Below are positions 42,591-52,269 of a DNA stretch of 64,000 nucleotides, one piece after another. The notes under the pieces are model-generated. The model did not search any database. It was not told the DNA's origin and saw nothing but the letters and a program-made list of their open reading frames with translations. The stretch lies in the NCBI GenBank assembly GCA_913046365.1, contig CAJWRM010000005.1, forward strand, positions 1-64,000, in the 5' to 3' direction. Made by a program: the position numbers and the translations under genes. The stretch comes from an uncultured Flavobacteriales bacterium. GTDB lineage: Bacteria > Bacteroidota > Bacteroidia > Flavobacteriales_D > Crocinitomicaceae. The first letter of the stretch is position 1. Every line of letters starts with the position of its first letter.

Positions 42591-43748
42591 CTATAAGGTC
42601 CCGCGACTTGCTTGTTCCCTTTCTATAGACTCAAAAAGCGCTTTAAAATTACCAGCGCCAAAACCCCTAGCTCCCATTCGTTGAATAATTTCAAAAAACA
42701 ATGTTGGTCGGTCTTCAACGGGTTTGGTAAATATTTGCAGTAAATAACCTTCCTCATCAGCATCAATCATGATACCAAGGCCTTTTAGCGTTTCAATATC
42801 TTCACTAAGCTCATGATTATGCTCTTCTAACCGAATAGGAACTGCTTTGTAATACTCGTCAGGAGGTGTACTTAAAAATTCTATACCCCGCTGTCTCATA
42901 TCCGTCACGGTGCTGATTATGTCATTGGTTGCAACAGCGACATGTTGCACACCAGAACCTTCATAAAAGTCCAAATACTCCTCAATCTGAGATCTCTTTT
43001 TACCTTCTGCCGGTTCATTAATCGGAAATTTAATTCTACCATTTCCGTTTGACATCACCTTACTCATCAGTGCTGAATATTCAGTATGAATCTGCTTATC
43101 ATCGAAAGAAAGGAAATTTTCAAAACCCATAACATCCTCGTACCATTTAACCCAGGTATCCATTTCACCCCAGCCTACATTTCCAACCATATGATCGATA
43201 TATTTTAGGCCAACAGATTTTGGGTTATAATCGGATTCCCATTTTATAAAACCGGGTAAAAAGGTTCCTTCATAATTCTTACGCTCAACAAACATGTGGA
43301 CTGTCTCTCCGTAGGTATAAATTCCTGCGCGTACAACCTCTCCGTGTTCGTCTTTTTCAACAGTCGGTTCCATGTATGACTTTGCACCTCTATTGGTTGT
43401 CTCCTCATAAGCCTTTCGCGCATCATCGACCCATAATGCAACTACTTTAACTCCATCTCCATGTTTGACAATATGATCATTGATCGGAGATTTTGAATTC
43501 AAGGGAGTTGTCAAAACAAGACGTATTTTATCTTGCTTCAAAACATATGAAACAGAATCTTTACTTCCTGTTTCTAGTCCCTTGTAAGCATAGGATTGAA
43601 AGCCAAATGCTGTTTTATAAAAATGAGCAGATTGCTTTGCGTTACCAACATAAAACTCTACATAATCTGTCCCCAATAAGGGCAGAAAATCTTGCGCGCC
43701 TTGGAAGATTTTTTCTAATCCGTAATCTACGTTCTTTACTTCTTTCAT
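42591..43748 (-). CDS. hppD: 4-Hydroxyphenylpyruvate dioxygenase
   Basis: 385 residues, two vicinal-oxygen-chelate halves. It converts 4-hydroxyphenylpyruvate to homogentisate with Fe(II) and O2. The catalytic C-terminal half has 'SGVQHVAVATNDIISTV' (His ligand), 'EEGYLLQIFTKP' and 'FFEIIQRMGARGFGAGNFKA' (Glu ligand and C-terminal gate helix). The first His ligand is in 'KYIDHMVGNV'. Second step of tyrosine catabolism; 20 bases downstream of hmgA, which encodes the next step. Fumarylacetoacetase is not in the window. Confidence 0.96.
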   Translation of the reverse strand: MKEVKNVDYGLEKIFQGAQDFLPLLGTDYVEFYVGNAKQSAHFYKTAFGFQSYAYKGLETGSKDSVSYVLKQDKIRLVLTTPLNSKSPINDHIVKHGDGVKVVALWVDDARKAYEETTNRGAKSYMEPTVEKDEHGEVVRAGIYTYGETVHMFVERKNYEGTFLPGFIKWESDYNPKSVGLKYIDHMVGNVGWGEMDTWVKWYEDVMGFENFLSFDDKQIHTEYSALMSKVMSNGNGRIKFPINEPAEGKKRSQIEEYLDFYEGSGVQHVAVATNDIISTVTDMRQRGIEFLSTPPDEYYKAVPIRLEEHNHELSEDIETLKGLGIMIDADEEGYLLQIFTKPVEDRPTLFFEIIQRMGARGFGAGNFKALFESIEREQASRGTL

Positions 43749-43768
43749 GGTCTCTTTTTAAATGTCTA

Positions 43769-44926
43769 TTAATGTATCCAAGATTTATAATAATCTTTCG
43801 CTTCTATTGAAACAGCTTGTTCTGTAATTTTCAAAGGCTTAAAAGTATCCACCATAACTGCAAGCTCCTCTGTTTTTTCTTTTCCTATGCTTCGCTCATA
43901 AGCGCCTGGATGAGGGCCGTGAGGAATACCTGAGGGATGCAGTGTTATCTGTCCCTTAGAAATATCATTTCTACTCATGAAATCACCATCAACATAATAT
44001 AAAACCTCATCAGAATCAATATTACTGTGGTTGTATGGTGCAGGAATCGCATCAGGATGATAGTCATACATACGCGGGCAGAATGAACATATTACAAACG
44101 CAGAAGTTTCAAATGTTTGATGCACCGGTGGAGGCTGATGAATCCTTCCTGTAATCGGCTCAAAATCATGAATAGAAAAAGCATAAGGAAAATTATATCC
44201 ATCCCAACCTATAACATCAAAAGGATGGGTGTGATATATATATTCATATAATACTCCTTCCTTTTTAATCTTTACCATGAAATCTCCAGTTTCATCATGA
44301 GTTTCCAAGTTTTCTGGAGTTCTTAAATCCCGTTCACAAAACGGTGAATGCTCTAGTAATTGACCAAACCAATTGCGGTATCTTTTGGGTGTGTAAATAG
44401 GGTGATTGGATTCCACAATAAAATGTCTATTCTGGTCATCCTCAAAATTCATTTGATAAATCATACCCCTTGGAACAACTAAATAATCTCCATATGAAAA
44501 TTCAATATTACCAACCTGAGTTCTTAAAGTACCTTTTCCTTCATGAATAAATATTACTTCGTCTGCATCCACATTCTTATAAAAATAATCTTCACTGAGG
44601 TTCTTAGGCCTAGAAAGAGATATGGTAACATCGCTATTCGTAAGAATCGGTACACGAGCATCAATTAAATCCTCAATAACTGGCACATCTAATCCTTTGA
44701 AGGCCCGCATTTGCATATTTTTAGCAACCGCAATTTTGGGACTGACATCTTTGGAACCTTTTATTTCCTTAACCTTAGTAGGTGGCTGAACATGGTATAA
44801 TAATGACGACATCCCGTCAAAACCGATGGTTCCAAAAAGCTGTTCATGGTAGAGAGCTCCATTTGGTTGTCGAAATACAGTATGTCTTTTGTGGGGTATT
44901 GAACCCAATTTTCTGTAGAATGGCAT
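43769..44926 (-). CDS. hmgA: Homogentisate 1,2-dioxygenase
   Basis: 385 residues, cupin-type. It opens the ring of homogentisate to maleylacetoacetate. Family features: 'YRKLGSIPHKRHTVFRQPNG' start, 'EDLIDARVPILTNSDVTI', 'DEVIFIHEGKGTLRTQVG', 'GDYLVVPRGMIYQMNF' and the iron-site region 'LHPSGIPHGPHPGAYE'. It is shorter than the ~440-residue human and proteobacterial form, as is usual in Bacteroidota. First gene of the hmgA-hppD pair, divergent from the threonine dehydrogenase gene. Confidence 0.94.
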   Translation of the reverse strand: MPFYRKLGSIPHKRHTVFRQPNGALYHEQLFGTIGFDGMSSLLYHVQPPTKVKEIKGSKDVSPKIAVAKNMQMRAFKGLDVPVIEDLIDARVPILTNSDVTISLSRPKNLSEDYFYKNVDADEVIFIHEGKGTLRTQVGNIEFSYGDYLVVPRGMIYQMNFEDDQNRHFIVESNHPIYTPKRYRNWFGQLLEHSPFCERDLRTPENLETHDETGDFMVKIKKEGVLYEYIYHTHPFDVIGWDGYNFPYAFSIHDFEPITGRIHQPPPVHQTFETSAFVICSFCPRMYDYHPDAIPAPYNHSNIDSDEVLYYVDGDFMSRNDISKGQITLHPSGIPHGPHPGAYERSIGKEKTEELAVMVDTFKPLKITEQAVSIEAKDYYKSWIH

Positions 44927-45990: not shown

Positions 45991-46031
45991 TATTTAAAAG
46001 GGTTACAAAGAAAATATAGCCTCCTAAGATT

Positions 46032-46106
46032 AATTTTGTTTAACCTTTTACTTGTTTTGTTAAACATTTTTTGTTTACATTTACAGTGAAAACATTAAAC
46101 AAAATA
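46032..46106 (+). promoter_or_regulatory. Promoter with repeated operator elements before the ECF sigma gene
   Basis: Four copies of a 12-base element: TTTTGTTTAACC (46035), TTTTGTTAAACA (46056), TTTTGTTTACAT (46070) and the inverted ATTAAACAAAAT (46095). The first overlaps an exact TAATTTTG box (46032-46039). A second possible promoter is TTG at 46053 with TACATTTA at 46077-46084. The arrangement suggests repeated binding of one regulator across the promoter of the photoprotection operon. The regulator itself is not in the window. Confidence 0.55.
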
Positions 46107-46108
46107 TT

Positions 46109-46621
46109 ATGTCGACCATCGAATTTAATGAAGCACTAATGGATATTGAGAATAACCTCAAATCATTTGCCCTGAGTTTTACAAGAAACATGGAGGATGC
46201 AAAAGACCTAACGCAAGACACCATGTTGAAGGCTATAAACTACAAAACCTATTATACGCCTCAAACAAATTTCAAAGCCTGGGTATTCACCATTATGAGA
46301 AACATTTTCATCAACCAATACCGTCGGAAAGTAAAATCAGGAACAATCTTCGATAACTCAAAAGAATTGTATTTGATTACTAATAGTAAGGGCCATGAGC
46401 AAACACCAGTTTCGCAAATTGCCACAAAAGATATCGAAGAAAAAATAGATAGCTTAAGTTCCGAGTATAAAGATCCGTTTGTACTGCATTTTAAAGGTTT
46501 TAAATACAAAGAGATAGCTGATCAATTAAATATTCCTATAGGAACAGTTAAAAGTAGAATATTCATTGCACGAAAAAAATTGATAGATTTACTTCCTGAT
46601 TACTCTTATACCTTAAATTAG
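46109..46621 (+). CDS. ECF RNA polymerase sigma factor
   Basis: 170 residues. Region 2: 'LKSFALSFTRNMEDAKDLTQ' and 'FKAWVFTIMRNIFINQYRR'. Region 4: 'FKYKEIADQLNIPIGTVKSR'. No anti-sigma gene follows, unlike most ECF systems; instead the phytoene desaturase gene starts 3 bases after the stop. This placement suggests the sigma factor directs its own operon and perhaps other photo-oxidative stress genes, with control through its promoter repeats rather than through an anti-sigma factor. Confidence 0.92.
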   Translation: MSTIEFNEALMDIENNLKSFALSFTRNMEDAKDLTQDTMLKAINYKTYYTPQTNFKAWVFTIMRNIFINQYRRKVKSGTIFDNSKELYLITNSKGHEQTPVSQIATKDIEEKIDSLSSEYKDPFVLHFKGFKYKEIADQLNIPIGTVKSRIFIARKKLIDLLPDYSYTLN

Positions 46622-46624
46622 GAA

Positions 46625-48094
46625 ATGTCGCTTAAAGTTATTGTTATTGGTTCTGGTGTATCTAGCCTTTCTTCTGCCTCCTTTTTAGCTAAGGAAGGAC
46701 ATGATGTAACGATAATTGAAAAAAACGATCAAATCGGTGGTCGTGCTCGAAAGTTTAGCAAAGAAGGATTTACATTCGATATGGGTCCAAGCTGGTATTG
46801 GATGCCAGATGTGTTTGAAGATTTCTATAATAAGTTTAATCACACTACGAGTGATTTTTACAACCTTAAACGTTTAGATCCGTCATACAGAGTTTATTGG
46901 AAGGACGCGACGCACACAGATGTTCCTGCCAACATGAAAGCGTTGGAGGAATGGTTCGAGGAAAATGAAAAGGGGAGCGCCTTAAAATTAAGAGCCTTCT
47001 TAAAAGATGCAGAGGTCAAATATCAGGTTGGTATGCAGGATTTGGTTTACAAACCAAGCATGAGCGTCTTTGAATTTGCAAACAAAAAAGTGCTAAAAGG
47101 ATTGCTGAGTATGAATCTTTTTTCATCTTTCGGAAAATTCATCAGAAGTTATTTCTCGAATGAAAAAATAATTGGCCTTCTTGAATTTCCCGTTTTATTT
47201 TTGGGTGCTATGCCCAATGAGACTCCCGCACTATACTCTCTTATGAACTATGCGGATATTAAACTAGGAACATGGTATCCTGAAGGAGGTATGCATAAAT
47301 TTATAGAGGCCTTCGAAAAAATTGCGTTGGAAAATAAAGTAAAATTCATAACTGGTGAAGAAGTAATTTCATTTGATAAAGAGAATCGAAAAATAAAAAG
47401 TGTAGTTACAACGAAAGGAAAATACTCAGCAGACATCATCATATCAGGGGCAGACTATCAGCATACTGACAAAAAATTGTTAAATGGTCATGCCAATTAT
47501 TCCCAAAAATATTGGGACAAACGCGTTATGGCGCCTTCTTGCCTTTTATTTTATGTAGGTATAGATAAAAAATTAAAGGACGTACAACACCACAATCTTT
47601 TCTTTGATGAATCCTTAGAGCAGCACGGTATAGAAATTTACAAAGATCCAAAATGGCCAAGCGCCCCTCTGTTTTACGTTTGTGCTCCATCCATTACGGA
47701 TGCAAGTGTGGCTCCAGAGGGAAGTGAAAACTTATTTTTCCTTATTCCCATAGCTCCAAATTTAGACGACAGCGAGGAAACCAGAGAAAAATATTTCAAT
47801 ATTTTACTCAAACGATTCAAGGAAAAAACGGGCAACGATATTGCCAGTAACATCGTATATAAAAAGAGTTTTTGCATTGAAGATTTTAAAAATGACTACA
47901 ATGCATTTAAAGGAAATGCATACGGATTGGCCAATACTTTGCGGCAAACTGCTATCTTAAAGCCGTCATTGAGAAATAAAAATTTAGATAACTTCTATTA
48001 CACCGGTCAATTGACCGTACCTGGACCTGGAGTTCCGCCCTCCATTGTTTCGGGAGAAGTTGTCGCAAAATACGTACTTAAAAACCATTCATAG
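46625..48094 (+). CDS. crtI: Phytoene desaturase
   Basis: 489 residues, membrane-associated FAD enzyme that introduces double bonds into phytoene to give lycopene or neurosporene. The dinucleotide fold is 'VIVIGSGVSSLSSASFLAKE', with Ser instead of the third Gly of GxGxxG, a variation I know from Bacteroidota CrtI. 'FTFDMGPSWYWMPDVFE' and the C-terminal CrtI signature 'LTVPGPGVPPSIVSGEVVAK' are present. The carotenoid is likely made into a yellow-orange pigment, but the cyclase and hydroxylase genes are outside the window. Confidence 0.94.
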   Translation: MSLKVIVIGSGVSSLSSASFLAKEGHDVTIIEKNDQIGGRARKFSKEGFTFDMGPSWYWMPDVFEDFYNKFNHTTSDFYNLKRLDPSYRVYWKDATHTDVPANMKALEEWFEENEKGSALKLRAFLKDAEVKYQVGMQDLVYKPSMSVFEFANKKVLKGLLSMNLFSSFGKFIRSYFSNEKIIGLLEFPVLFLGAMPNETPALYSLMNYADIKLGTWYPEGGMHKFIEAFEKIALENKVKFITGEEVISFDKENRKIKSVVTTKGKYSADIIISGADYQHTDKKLLNGHANYSQKYWDKRVMAPSCLLFYVGIDKKLKDVQHHNLFFDESLEQHGIEIYKDPKWPSAPLFYVCAPSITDASVAPEGSENLFFLIPIAPNLDDSEETREKYFNILLKRFKEKTGNDIASNIVYKKSFCIEDFKNDYNAFKGNAYGLANTLRQTAILKPSLRNKNLDNFYYTGQLTVPGPGVPPSIVSGEVVAKYVLKNHS

Positions 48095-48095
48095 G

Positions 48096-48932
48096 ATGAA
48101 AGCTATATTTGATAATTTAAGCCAAGACATGAGTAAAATGACGACACGTCGTTATAGCACTTCATTTTCGTTGGGAATTCGTTTTTTAAACAAAGAGTTA
48201 CACAGACCCATATATTCAATCTATGGTTTCGTTCGTTTTGCGGATGAAATTGTTGATTCATTTGATGGTTATGATAAAGAAATTCTATTAGCGGAATTTA
48301 AAAAAGATACTTATGACGCTATAGAAAAGGGAATCTCACTGAATCCTATTTTAAATTCCTTTCAATGGGCAGTGAATAAATATAGGGTTCCATTAGACCT
48401 CATTGAAACCTTCATGAATTCCATGGAAATGGATCTAGATAAAAAGGTTTATGACAAGGATACTTATGAGAAATATATTTTAGGTTCGGCAGAGGTAGTG
48501 GGTTTAATGTGTTTAAAAATATTTGTCAGTGGAGAGGATAGCGAATACCAAAGATTGAAAATGAATGCCATGAAGCTTGGGTCTGCATTCCAAAAAATTA
48601 ATTTCCTTCGGGATTTAAATGATGACTTTAACGAGTTGGGTAGAACCTATTTTCCTGGAATCAATATGAATGATTTCAATAATATCGTCAAAAAAGAAAT
48701 TGAAGCAGATATAGAAAAGGACTTCAGACTGGGATATGAAGGTATTCTCATGCTTCCAAAAAGAGCGAGATTTGGTGTTTATATGGCTTATAAATATTAT
48801 TTCAAGCTATTTAAGAAAATTAAAAGAACAAAAGCCGAAAGAATTCTAGAAGAAAGAGTGCGTATACCAAACCGCAAAAAAGCCAGGATTCTTGTTACAT
48901 CATACGTAAGGCACAATCTCAACATATTATAG
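48096..48932 (+). CDS. crtB: Phytoene synthase
   Basis: 278 residues from the ATG at 48096, one base after the crtI stop; a longer reading begins inside crtI. It condenses two geranylgeranyl diphosphates to phytoene. The two Asp-rich motifs are 'FADEIVDSF' and 'FLRDLNDDFNELGRTYFP'. 'RYSTSFSLGIRFLNKELHRP' is the typical start of squalene/phytoene synthases in Bacteroidota. Confidence 0.94.
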   Translation: MKAIFDNLSQDMSKMTTRRYSTSFSLGIRFLNKELHRPIYSIYGFVRFADEIVDSFDGYDKEILLAEFKKDTYDAIEKGISLNPILNSFQWAVNKYRVPLDLIETFMNSMEMDLDKKVYDKDTYEKYILGSAEVVGLMCLKIFVSGEDSEYQRLKMNAMKLGSAFQKINFLRDLNDDFNELGRTYFPGINMNDFNNIVKKEIEADIEKDFRLGYEGILMLPKRARFGVYMAYKYYFKLFKKIKRTKAERILEERVRIPNRKKARILVTSYVRHNLNIL

Positions 48933-48933
48933 C

Positions 48934-49452
48934 ATGATTGAAGTGCAATTGGTTGACAATCAAGACAACCCAATAGGGGCTATGGAAAAAATGCTGGCCC
49001 ATGAGAAAGGCGAGCTTCACAGAGCACTCTCGGTGCTTATTGTGAATTCAAAAAATGAAATACTGTTGCAAAGAAGAGCGCTTGGGAAATATCATTCACC
49101 GGGCCTTTGGACAAACACATGTTGTAGTCACCCTTATCCAGGGGAGGATTCTCTAGAAGCGGCTAACAGAAGACTCAAAGAAGAAATGGGAATGTCCGCA
49201 GATTTAGAATTTGCGTTTAAATTCCAATACAAATGTGACTTTGACAACGGTTTGATTGAGCATGAGTTAGACCATGTTTTTGTTGGTAAAACAGACGATA
49301 CACCACACATTAATACAGATGAAGCGATGGCTTTTTCATGGATGTCAATTGATGATCTTGAAGCAAACATGCAAAAATCACCAGATGACTATACCTTTTG
49401 GTTTAAGCTCATCATTCAGCAATATAGGAAATCACTTAAAGCTTATTTCTAA
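48934..49452 (+). CDS. idi: Isopentenyl-diphosphate delta-isomerase, type 1
   Basis: 172 residues, Nudix fold. It interconverts isopentenyl and dimethylallyl diphosphate and so feeds carotenoid precursors. 'HRALSVLIVNSKNEILLQRR', 'LWTNTCCSHPYPGED' (catalytic Cys) and 'EAANRRLKEEMGM' (Nudix-like helix), plus 'LIEHELDHVFVG', are all present. One base after crtB; its stop codon overlaps the next start (TAATG). Confidence 0.95.
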   Translation: MIEVQLVDNQDNPIGAMEKMLAHEKGELHRALSVLIVNSKNEILLQRRALGKYHSPGLWTNTCCSHPYPGEDSLEAANRRLKEEMGMSADLEFAFKFQYKCDFDNGLIEHELDHVFVGKTDDTPHINTDEAMAFSWMSIDDLEANMQKSPDDYTFWFKLIIQQYRKSLKAYF

Positions 49453-49856
49453 TGAAAGTATGTAGAAAGGCCAGCTTTAACGCTGCGCATAGACTTTATC
49501 GTCCAGATTGGTCTGATGAAAAAAATGATGAAGTTTTTGGAAAATGTAATAATTACAATTTCCATGGACACAATTACAAACTGGAGGTTTGGATTGATGG
49601 ACCAATTGATCCAGAAACAGGATATGTCATAGACCTTAAGATTTTAAAAGGAATAATCAATGATGAGGTTATTGAACGATTCGATCATCGTAACCTTAAT
49701 GAGGACTGTCCGGAGTTTAAAAACCTTATTCCTACTGCGGAACATATTAGCATGGTTTGTTATGATTTACTTAGAGCAAAGCTCGAGCAAAAATTTGATC
49801 TATCTGTTAAGCTATGGGAAACTGAAAATAACGTAGTCGTCTACGAGGGCATCTAA
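49452..49856 (+). CDS. 6-Carboxytetrahydropterin synthase / PTPS family protein
   Basis: 134 residues. Zinc histidines are in 'NAAHRLYRP' and 'NFHGHNYKLEV'. The catalytic cysteine is in 'FGKCNNYNFHGHN'. The C-terminal glutamate is in 'LWETENNVVVYEG', so the active site looks complete. QueD-type members make 6-carboxytetrahydropterin for queuosine; PTPS-type members make 6-pyruvoyltetrahydropterin. Its place between idi and a flavin reductase next to photolyase raises the alternative that it serves a pterin made for photoprotection. No other queuosine gene is nearby. Confidence 0.88.
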   Translation: MKVCRKASFNAAHRLYRPDWSDEKNDEVFGKCNNYNFHGHNYKLEVWIDGPIDPETGYVIDLKILKGIINDEVIERFDHRNLNEDCPEFKNLIPTAEHISMVCYDLLRAKLEQKFDLSVKLWETENNVVVYEGI

Positions 49857-49867
49857 ATTACTGAGCA

Positions 49868-50491
49868 ATGACTCATAAGTTAGAGACAATCAAGGCAGAA
49901 GAATTTAAAGAACTCGATAGGCACAAATTCACTACATTTTTTAATGCACTTTCAGGTGCGAAACCAGGATATCTAATTGGTTCTGGTGAGGGAGAGGATG
50001 AAAACTTAGCCATTTTCAATTCGATTATACACATTGGAGCAAACCCGCCTTTACTCGGATTTATTCAGAGGCCCACAACAGTGGACAGACATACTTATCA
50101 GAATATTCTAAAATACAAGCATTATAGCTTCAATCTAATCACTGAAGATTTTTTTGAAGAAGCACACCAAACCTCCGCGCGATACACAAAAGGGATAAAC
50201 GAATTTAAAGAGGTCGGACTAACGGCTATATATAAAGAAAAAACAAGGTGTCCCTTTGTTGCAGAATCACCCCTTCATATTACACTTGAACTGCATGATG
50301 ACATGGAGATTAAATCAAACAAAACGCGATTAATTATTGGAAAAGTTATCTCAGTTTCACAGCCCGAATCATTGGATGAAAATAAATATAGACTCAACTT
50401 TCAAGTGCTAAAAGGCATGAATATCTCGGGTCTTACTGATTACTATACACTAACCAAGGTTAAGTCCTTAAATTACGCAAAACCAAAGTAA
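49868..50491 (+). CDS. Flavin reductase-like, FMN-binding split-barrel protein
   Basis: 207 residues. The split-barrel flavin reductase family is indicated by 'NLAIFNSIIHIGANPPLLGF', 'VDRHTYQNILKYKHYSFNLI' and 'AHQTSARYTKGINEFKEVGL'. Members bind FMN and reduce free flavins or supply reduced flavin to partner enzymes. Here a role in keeping photolyase FAD reduced, or in pigment modification, is possible but unproven. 11 bases after the pterin gene and 3 before the photolyase gene. Confidence 0.83.
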   Translation: MTHKLETIKAEEFKELDRHKFTTFFNALSGAKPGYLIGSGEGEDENLAIFNSIIHIGANPPLLGFIQRPTTVDRHTYQNILKYKHYSFNLITEDFFEEAHQTSARYTKGINEFKEVGLTAIYKEKTRCPFVAESPLHITLELHDDMEIKSNKTRLIIGKVISVSQPESLDENKYRLNFQVLKGMNISGLTDYYTLTKVKSLNYAKPK

Positions 50492-50494
50492 AGT

Positions 50495-51802
50495 ATGGAA
50501 CCTAAAAATGCACTATTTTGGCATAGACGAGACATCAGAATAGTTGATAATTCAGGATTACACAAAGCCTTAATAGAATCCGATGCGGTCATTCCTGTGT
50601 TTATTTTCGACACCTTCATTCTTGACAAGCTAACGGAAAAAGATGCTAGAGTATCGTTCATACACCATGAAATTTCTCAACTCAAAAAAGCATATCAAGA
50701 GCTAGGCTCTGACCTCATTGTTGCATATGGTGATCCAAAATTGCTTATTCCTAAATTGGCTGAAGAACACAAAGCCTCTTTCGTATATACCAATCGAGAT
50801 TATGAACCATATGCAAGGTCAAGAGACTCGTATTTATATACCAAGCTAAAGGAAAATAATATTTCATTCCTCGGTGCAAAAGACCACGTCGTATTTGAAA
50901 AAGAAGAAGTATTGAAAGCGGACGGTCTCCCGTATACAGTCTTCACACCATATTCTCGGAAGTGGAAAGCTTATTTTGATGAAAATTACACCGCCTCCTA
51001 CCCTAGTGAAAAAAATACCGCTTCCCTTTTTAAATGCGAAACGATTCAGAATCTTATCCCTTTAAAGGATATGGGATTTGTTGAAAATAAGATGAGTTTC
51101 CCTAAGAAGACACTTGAGTCGCAAACAATAAATAATTATCAAGAGAAAAGAAATTTCCCTGCAGCCAACGGAACCTCACTTCTTAGTATTCATCTACGAT
51201 TTGGTACAATTAGCATTCGCTCACTAGTCAATAAGAGTCTAAGTATGAGCGAAACTTACCTTAATGAGCTTATTTGGAGAGACTTCTACCAAATGATTCT
51301 TTTTCATTTTCCACATACTGCTGAAAATGCCTTTAGAAAGAAATATGACTTAATTGAATGGGAAAGAAACATGGACAACTTTGAGCTATGGTGTCAAGGT
51401 AAAACAGGATACCCAATAGTCGATGCAGGTATGAGAGAACTCAATGAAACGGGATTTATGCATAATCGAGTACGTATGATTGTGGCTTCTTTTTTCACTA
51501 AGCATTTACTCTTAGACTGGAGACTTGGGGCTGCATATTTCGCCGAAAAACTTCTTGACTTTGATTTGGCGAGCAACACAGGAGGTTGGCAATGGGCGGC
51601 CGGTTGTGGTTGTGATGCCGCACCCTACTTCAGGATTTTCAACCCAACAACTCAGCAGCAAAAATTTGATAAAGATTTTAAATATATTAAAAAATGGGTT
51701 CCGGAGTTTGGGACAAAAAAATACCCTGAACCAATCGTTGAACATAAATTTGCAAGAGAAAGAGCATTACACCGGTATAAAAAAGGCCTAGGTAAATTAT
51801 GA
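50495..51802 (+). CDS. phrB: Deoxyribodipyrimidine photolyase (class I CPD type)
   Basis: 435 residues. Photoreactivates UV-induced pyrimidine dimers. N-terminal Rossmann antenna domain ('ALFWHRRDIRIVDNSGLHKA', ~1-130). The helical FAD domain carries 'LSIHLRFGTISIRSLV', 'LNELIWRDFYQMILFHFP', 'GKTGYPIVDAGMRELNETGF', 'MHNRVRMIVASFFTKHLL' and 'GGWQWAAGCGCDAAPYFRIF'. These agree with class I CPD photolyases rather than DASH cryptochromes. It is somewhat shorter than E. coli Phr (472). The antenna cofactor cannot be read off; the neighbouring pterin synthase makes a folate or pterin antenna thinkable. Overlaps the peroxiredoxin gene by 4 bases. Confidence 0.94.
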   Translation: MEPKNALFWHRRDIRIVDNSGLHKALIESDAVIPVFIFDTFILDKLTEKDARVSFIHHEISQLKKAYQELGSDLIVAYGDPKLLIPKLAEEHKASFVYTNRDYEPYARSRDSYLYTKLKENNISFLGAKDHVVFEKEEVLKADGLPYTVFTPYSRKWKAYFDENYTASYPSEKNTASLFKCETIQNLIPLKDMGFVENKMSFPKKTLESQTINNYQEKRNFPAANGTSLLSIHLRFGTISIRSLVNKSLSMSETYLNELIWRDFYQMILFHFPHTAENAFRKKYDLIEWERNMDNFELWCQGKTGYPIVDAGMRELNETGFMHNRVRMIVASFFTKHLLLDWRLGAAYFAEKLLDFDLASNTGGWQWAAGCGCDAAPYFRIFNPTTQQQKFDKDFKYIKKWVPEFGTKKYPEPIVEHKFARERALHRYKKGLGKL

Positions 51803-52269
51803 AAATAGGAGAGCCATGTCCGAAAATAGATTTTAACAATCAGTACGGGAAGCCTATACCATTCGGTGACATGATAGGCAGCAAAAATATTGTCTTCTTT
51901 TTTTATCCAAAAAATTTTACGCCTGGATGTACTAAAGAGGCCTGCGTATTTCGAGACAGCTATGCGGAATTTCAGCACCACGACTGTGAGGTTATTGGCG
52001 TTTCATCAGATTCGGAAAAATCTCACTTGTCTTTTTCAAATGCATTCAATCTGAATTATCATTTAATTGCAGATCGAAATGAATCGCTTCGAGCATTATT
52101 CAACGTACCTAAAAATTTATTTGGTCTTATTCCTGGGAGGGTGACATTCATATTCGATAAAAAAGGAATATGCATTGGCTTGTTCAACTCAATGATCAAT
52201 TCCCAGGGTCATATACGCTATGCAATAAAATGCCTTAAAAAGGCCAATAAATCAAAAGAATACAAATAG
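51799..52269 (+). CDS. Peroxiredoxin (BCP/PrxQ type)
   Basis: 156 residues. The peroxidatic cysteine is C44 in 'FYPKNFTPGCTKEACVFRD', with the resolving cysteine C49 five residues later, as in PrxQ/BCP enzymes. It reduces H2O2 and lipid hydroperoxides using thioredoxin. Last gene of the ECF sigma-carotenoid-photolyase operon, overlapping phrB by 4 bases, which supports the operon's role in photo-oxidative stress. Confidence 0.92.
   Translation: MKIGEPCPKIDFNNQYGKPIPFGDMIGSKNIVFFFYPKNFTPGCTKEACVFRDSYAEFQHHDCEVIGVSSDSEKSHLSFSNAFNLNYHLIADRNESLRALFNVPKNLFGLIPGRVTFIFDKKGICIGLFNSMINSQGHIRYAIKCLKKANKSKEYK

Follow-up and report, generated by a model that had tools for sequence, protein, structure and literature searches.

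Which protein, if any, reads the repeats that crowd the leader of an ECF sigma factor gene, and what would its binding achieve? The repeats lie in a 64,000-nucleotide stretch of bacterial DNA (hereafter, the window), directly before the sigma gene (46109–46621, plus strand; Pfam Sigma70_r2 and Sigma70_r4_2), which here opens an operon and in relatives often comes after merR. It is followed on the same strand by genes for a crtI-like phytoene desaturase (46625–48094; Amino_oxidase and NAD_binding_8, named by context, with a match in 91 of 100 genomes, its own included), the phytoene synthase CrtB (48096–48932; SQS_PSY), an idi-like NUDIX protein (isopentenyl diphosphate isomerase; 48934–49452; NUDIX, idi by context), a member of the PTPS family (6-pyruvoyl-tetrahydropterin synthase-like; 49452–49856; PTPS), a flavin reductase-like protein (49868–50491; Flavin_Reduct), a photolyase/cryptochrome (50495–51802; DNA_photolyase and FAD_binding_7) and an AhpC/TSA peroxiredoxin (51799–52269; AhpC-TSA), and the genes from sigma to peroxiredoxin would form one transcript. 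On the minus strand, at 42591–44926, lie two 385-aa ORFs whose products presumably resemble 4-hydroxyphenylpyruvate dioxygenase and homogentisate dioxygenase. Judged from sequence comparison, the array very probably represents two docking sites for a B12-based light-sensing repressor found in many Bacteroidota.

The earlier note had described four elements, three direct copies and one inverted, and in their positions it was right to within a base or so: TTTTGTTTAAC lies at 46034–46044, TTTTGTTAAAC at 46055–46065, TTTTGTTTAC at 46069–46078 and the inverted copy, TTAAACAAAAT, at 46095–46105. However, comparison with leaders from the same genus and a scan of spacer lengths show that the conserved units of the array are half-sites in the order + − + −, which pair into two tandem dyads, each with a 16-nt spacer (N16). 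Dyad A (46037–46066) is an exact TGTTTAA-N16-TTAAACA, while dyad B (46072–46101) reads TGTTTAC-N16-TTAAACA and thus carries one mismatch; neither is assigned to a strand. Across 46 leaders, mean identity is 0.99 at the left half-site of dyad A (TGTTTAA, 46037–46043, plus strand), 1.00 at its right half-site (TTAAACA, 46060–46066, minus strand), 0.87 at the left half-site of dyad B (TGTTTAC, 46072–46078, plus strand; TGTTTAA in most relatives) and 0.99 at the right half-site of dyad B (TTAAACA, 46095–46101, minus strand). The second copy, previously taken as direct, corresponds to the right half-site of dyad A and has to be regarded as inverted, because the TTTTG ahead of it is not kept in relatives, in which this half-site often reads ACATTAAACA. 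The conserved + − + − order likewise rules out a four-copy direct repeat.

The genus of the window provided 58 genomes with crtI, from which 50 crt loci were taken and 48 leaders proved usable (L018 and L025 were dropped; the eight crtI loci beyond these 50 include those of G006, G038 and G049). Dyads are present in all 48 leaders, exactly two in 46 of them, while L021 has the usual two plus a weak third one (two mismatches), and L036, which runs into a contig end, has a single one; dyad A is found in 47 of the 48, the remaining leader ending at a contig edge. In 46 leaders the two dyads start 33–35 bp apart, with spacers of 16/16 nt in 44 and 16/17 nt in two. Among the 46 leaders long enough to be aligned, identity to the window reaches 0.87–1.00 in the half-sites, falls to 0.54–0.65 in the spacers and amounts to only 0.36 in the 85 bp upstream, so that the elements do persist in orthologous leaders, the test by which the earlier note had proposed to judge them. 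Exact dyads in this genus are mostly this crt pair: eight genomes chosen for at least three exact dyads each contain a pair 34–35 bp apart, at the crtI place in seven of them, together with one stray, and G007 shows five because its pair occurs on two contigs. Separately, G017 (C1:1191299-1191328) and G032 (C57:4743-4772) carry one and the same exact dyad outside the crt region.

Dyad B also contains a candidate −7 box, TACATTTA (46076–46083, plus strand), of the form TAnnTTT[A/G]. All 46 leaders with two dyads have this form at the left half of dyad B, whereas none has it at the corresponding place in dyad A and two have it at the mirrored half; the strict form TAnnTTTG occurs in nine. The window and two close relatives have lost a half-site base (TGTTTAC) while retaining the −7 form. 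The −7 consensus of Flavobacterium psychrophilum, as presented in the available part of the source, is TAnnTTTG at −12 to −5 (PMC9723704), the form that the candidate box matches. Transcription is accordingly predicted to start near 46088, with dyad A covering about −51 to −22 and dyad B about −16 to +14 of this putative promoter, a placement that would suit occlusion. The trinucleotide TTG at 46052–46054 (plus strand), 21 nt ahead of the −7 box and missing in some relatives, is what we take to be a possible, albeit weak, −33 element, going by a TTG consensus at −33. A second candidate −7 box, TAATTTTG at 46031–46038, which the earlier note had singled out as the promoter box, did not withstand comparison, as relatives read CAATTTTG, TCATTTTG and others at this site; the conserved −7-like box is the one at 46076–46083.

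As for the regulator, a MerR-type light sensor of the CarH/LitR kind had been suggested, with no such gene in the window, and the comparison supports both points. The two MerR_1 proteins of this genome are encoded on contigs other than that of the window, and one of them (C2:138724-139593), whose orthologues adjoin sigma-crtI or crtI in many relatives, has the CarH/LitR layout, in which a MerR-type DNA-binding domain precedes one that binds B12 (MerR_1 and B12-binding_2 pass the Pfam cut-off, B12-binding falls short of it). Among solved structures, the closest chains are 3whp, annotated as a ‘probable transcriptional regulator’, and a CarH chain, 5c8d, each near 5e-17. The protein also possesses the CarH/LitR motif Wx9EH, which caps the adenosyl group, as WLIGSINPSQEH. 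We therefore consider it likely that the array is the operator of this B12-dependent MerR protein, by which the promoter would be occluded in the dark and released by light. In the dark, the AdoCbl-bound repressor would occupy both dyads from the same face of the helix, in contact with its neighbour; one dyad would block the upstream (−33) region and the other the −7 box and start site, so that RNA polymerase would be shut out. Light would break the Co–C bond and the repressor would disassemble, allowing transcription of sigma-crtI-crtB-idi-PTPS-flavin reductase-photolyase-peroxiredoxin, and the ECF sigma factor may then amplify or widen the response.

A rival reading concerns the trigger. The MerR protein could bind the dyads independently of B12 or answer another signal (redox or singlet oxygen, in the manner of CarA), so that the operon would respond to photo-oxidative stress and not to light directly. 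Indeed, the protein of the window’s genome reads ExHxxS instead of ExHxxG, as does its clade, and W occupies the third residue of its SxV/T motif, its GG being intact; ExHxxG and GG are both intact in only 24 of the 92 distinct MerR proteins from the examined loci, and for these reasons B12 handling may differ. Moreover, several candidate targets are redox genes, for instance, that of glutathione peroxidase, and in Myxococcus xanthus, CarA is described as acting B12-independently on the operator of CarH (PMC8156234). According to the part available of the same source, CarA lacks Wx9EH, which the CarH homologues under study retain (PMC8156234), and this motif is intact in 89 of the 92 proteins, while the lower-ligand histidine of [E/D]xH is present in all 92. 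Considering also that the genome encodes a cobalamin adenosyltransferase, and that rhodopsins, Blh and photolyase-like genes are among the candidate targets, a B12-independent trigger seems improbable, though less so than the other alternatives considered below.

A B12-dependent MerR repressor as the reader of the dyads is also favoured by their distribution. Among 20 relatives from the order, a CarH/LitR-type merR gene adjoins sigma-crtI or crtI in 14, and most of these merR-crtI gaps contain dyads or one-mismatch dyads. The arrangement merR-sigma-crtI, accompanied by dyads of which some carry one mismatch or an N17 spacer, recurs in genera such as Algoriphagus, Belliella, Marivirga, Roseivirga, Pontibacter and Sediminibacterium, the survey of named genera having also returned many loci without merR or without dyads. 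Going by its named near relatives, the window’s genus itself belongs in or close to Crocinitomicaceae. When 30 loci were reached through the pattern alone, 22 carried merR, sigma or crtI. At the genome level, an exact dyad is present in 199 of 247 merR-positive and 8 of 52 merR-negative genomes (Fisher 4.8e-19, uncorrected for kinship; the table was compiled by hand, with 32 merR-negative genomes inferred as the complement), and linkage and kinship account for part of this co-occurrence. It can also be followed within genera: in g36, all 12 merR-positive genomes have 2–11 dyads and the three merR-negative ones have none, in g28 the counts are 8/8 and 0/3, and g32 is mixed, with 4/8 and 0/2. 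The eight merR-negative genomes with an exact dyad comprise G127 (98% complete), G004 (93%), G058 (90%) and five that are 62–83% complete; G004 and G058 belong to the window’s genus, where they are the two merR-negative genomes sampled, both incomplete and both with dyads. Conversely, 48 of the 247 merR-positive genomes lack an exact dyad, and of 16 such genomes examined, 12 have a dyad with 1–2 mismatches at the merR, sigma or crtI locus, another has dyads at a different place in the locus and three have none. In four loci of families f8 and f9 (L312, L313, L314 and L315), the half-sites at merR read GTTGAAC/GTTCAAC with N16 kept, a variation that possibly reflects co-evolution of operator and repressor.

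These distributions bear on a different reader, namely the ECF sigma factor itself or another unlinked regulator, for example a TetR-like one, with MerR as a bystander. In the window’s genus, the dyads do stand directly ahead of the sigma gene, and in L166 and L169 TetR_C_23 proteins are found under dyads. Nevertheless, dyads are also present in loci without a sigma gene between merR and crtI (e.g. L138, L142, L143, L145, L147 and L148), which implies that they track merR and not sigma, and they occur before merR itself in L152, L155, L178, L185, L199 and L218. Symmetric half-sites with a fixed N16 spacer, furthermore, suit a symmetric DNA-binding protein better than a sigma factor, and together with the strong co-occurrence of merR and dyads this makes such a regulator quite unlikely. 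In the window’s genus, merR lies apart from crtI in 30 merR loci, and in G006, G038 and G049 a distant merR adjoins a distant crtI. Since the 30 same-genus merR loci (L096–L125) contain no N16 dyad within two mismatches before merR, 15 of these leaders having also been inspected by eye, the repressor is probably not autoregulated through the dyad in this genus. One of these genes, the merR of G032 (L099), was called with a single in-frame TAA across the match.

How unusual is such an arrangement in DNA of this composition? The density, which the earlier note had put far beyond chance, turned out to be only modestly unusual: when the window was shuffled 300 times with dinucleotide composition kept, four of the shuffles brought three exact half-sites into 65 bp, and density alone is weak as proof. 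An exact N16 dyad, on the other hand, appeared in none of the 300. The decisive evidence that the array is a genuine signal is its conservation. A scan of spacers of 0–40 nt across 70 crt loci found a spacer of 16 in 100 of 107 exact TGTTTAA/TTAAACA dyads and of 17 in four more. In 299 genomes of the order, 497 exact dyads fall in 207 genomes, compared with 15 matches to the reversed pattern, so the equal frequency at random sites that would have told against the elements was not observed. An RNA-level or low-complexity feature of the leader with no protein partner has an AT-rich leader and the 4/300 shuffles on its side, but it can be dismissed as having next to no probability, given the nearly invariant half-sites amid flanks down to 0.36 identity, the dyads before unrelated genes, the position of dyad A wholly upstream of the predicted start and the 15 reversed matches against 497. 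In a logo built from 233 distinct exact dyads, the half-site lengthens to about WWWTGTTTAAYNWWW (the 14 core bases, as the selection criterion, are uninformative), while nothing is conserved in the middle of the dyad. Across a whole genome, the dyad is conspicuous only when few mismatches are allowed: in the window’s genome, up to three mismatches give no excess over the reversed control (408 vs 479), whereas up to one mismatch gives four sites, two of them from the array. The other two (L082 and L084) lie within open reading frames and are, for that reason, probably due to chance, and a wider regulon in this particular genome was rejected as a candidate.

The cooperative binding by one repressor proposed in the earlier note fits the spacing between dyads, although binding itself, like the light response of the array, is something we infer. 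Of 58 neighbouring dyad pairs from other genera with distances of at most 80 bp, 56 are separated by 34–35, 41–45, 53–56 or 61–64 bp, groups that follow one another by about one helical turn; the remaining two are at 30.5 and 50 bp, and 12 further pairs at 82–135 bp. For 43 values, hand-collapsed to about one per lineage or promoter from a list that included one copy of the window’s own pair (L003), R was 0.67 at a period of 9.9 bp, unmatched in 20,000 uniform draws, for which the periods were scanned in coarser steps than for the real data. Because the lineages are not independent, we regard helical phasing as suggestive and attach no formal probability to it.

The protein and the presumed logic of the array resemble those of CarH, as known from Thermus thermophilus, Bacillus megaterium and myxobacteria, where a MerR DNA-binding domain is likewise joined to a B12-binding domain with Wx9EH, in agreement with the matches to 3whp and 5c8d, and where the operator likewise lies across a carotenoid-gene promoter, as the predicted promoter in dyad B suggests here. 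Published CarH operators, in the available parts of the respective papers, consist of tandem 11-bp direct repeats nnnnTnnACAn (PMC8156234, PMC9304148), inverted repeats also being mentioned for the M. xanthus operator (PMC9304148). Although the TnnACA core of these repeats recurs in the TTAAACA half-site, the half-sites described here are inverted, with centres 23 bp apart across N16, and form phased tandem dyads that in some genera, unlike CarH operators, are spread over many loci. Hence, the array would work like a CarH operator while lying outside the direct-repeat type, and if this is true, CarH here reads DNA with a geometry other than that of the published 11-bp repeats. In the account available for Streptomyces coelicolor, a B12-based MerR photosensor, an ECF sigma factor and carotenoid genes are combined in a light circuit: in the light, LitR is said to promote transcription of litS, whose product, sigma-LitS, in turn drives crtE (PMC12705666). 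The gene order merR-sigma-crt of Bacteroidota relatives resembles this circuit, whereas in the window sigma heads the crtI operon behind the operator, and the control would be repression by occlusion. The nearest layout to dyads A and B is that of the LitR-family repressors PplR1 and PmlR2 of Pseudomonas. In the portion at hand, two sites of the form TGTACA-N12-TGTACA are described, for which the consensus of PplR1 is T(G/A)TACA-N12-TGTA(C/T)A; the first spans the −35 region, and the second falls downstream of the transcription start but ahead of the start codon (PMC9758184). Half-site and spacer differ from TGTTTAA-N16-TTAAACA. PmlR2 itself is presented as a class II LitR inhibited by a LOV photoreceptor partner (PMC9758184).

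Closer to the present lineage, a MerR regulator heads the carotenoid cluster of Nonlabens spongiae (PMC11855829), and in Chryseobacterium lacus carotenoids are light-induced, a CarA/LitR-like role being only speculated upon (PMC7064467); the available parts of both accounts give no operator or mechanism. A literature search, mainly of open-access papers and without bioRxiv preprints, returned no published CarH operator or regulon from Bacteroidota; none is mentioned in PMC11796333, nor in the accessible portion of PMC5045206. Photoregulation of the CarH/LitR type is thus the known part, and the putative operator variant, inverted N16 dyads, the new one.

Dyads are not confined to crt. In eight dyad-rich genomes from other genera, 69 exact sites (against one control match) include sites before genes for PTPS, flavin reductase, SDR, glutathione peroxidase, fasciclin, SOUL, ABA4-like, TetR-like and MeaB proteins, as well as a photolyase-like gene, in this case with a DUF2805 gene between. 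PTPS, photolyase-like and flavin reductase genes thus have their own dyads in other genera, while in the window’s genus they are gathered in one operon behind a single operator. Rhodopsins follow dyads in four of the eight genomes, and, with a fifth case from the order-wide scan (L151:730-1455), five bacteriorhodopsin-like genes have an exact dyad upstream (the others being L201:756-2464, L193:1727-2464, L198:642-1391 and L181:688-1482). In L201 the dyad lies between divergent genes for a rhodopsin and Blh (beta-carotene dioxygenase). Many neighbours have no obvious link to light (TonB-like or secreted proteins, DUF429, DUF2452, DUF2911 and CIA30), and a Pfam scan of 30 proteins hand-picked among dyad neighbours left four without a family. 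In L150 one dyad falls inside an ORF, probably since the start was called too early, and in L192 and L213 no gene starts within 400 bp of the dyad.

The dyads before rhodopsin genes, and the one between rhodopsin and Blh, predict gating of rhodopsin phototrophy by B12 and light. As a tentative generalization, which we would rate at somewhat below even chances, much of the Bacteroidota may possess a B12 light regulon marked by TGTTTAA-N16-TTAAACA, in which symmetric CarH dimers meet across whole helical turns and which in photoheterotrophs gates rhodopsin and retinal synthesis; if so, B12 and light would jointly decide when the light-driven pump is built. With the dyad, a light switch that had been a guess for this large phylum, exposed to light as it is, comes down to one searchable 30-bp pattern linked to a specific photoreceptor family. 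The pattern predicts direct control of rhodopsin, Blh and photolyase genes by light and B12 in some genera, and phased inverted dyads constitute a directly testable geometry of a CarH operator.

Two further observations concern the neighbours of dyads. In two g15 genomes, a 288-aa RpoD-like sigma-70 protein (L127:423-1286 and L129:415-1281; Pfam assignment on L127 only) is encoded about 230 bp downstream of an exact dyad. In g36 (G232 and G283; L194 and L199), a dyad lies between merR and a divergent gene for a MeaB-like protein, a chaperone GTPase of B12 enzymes, the pair having been assigned by Pfam on L194 only.
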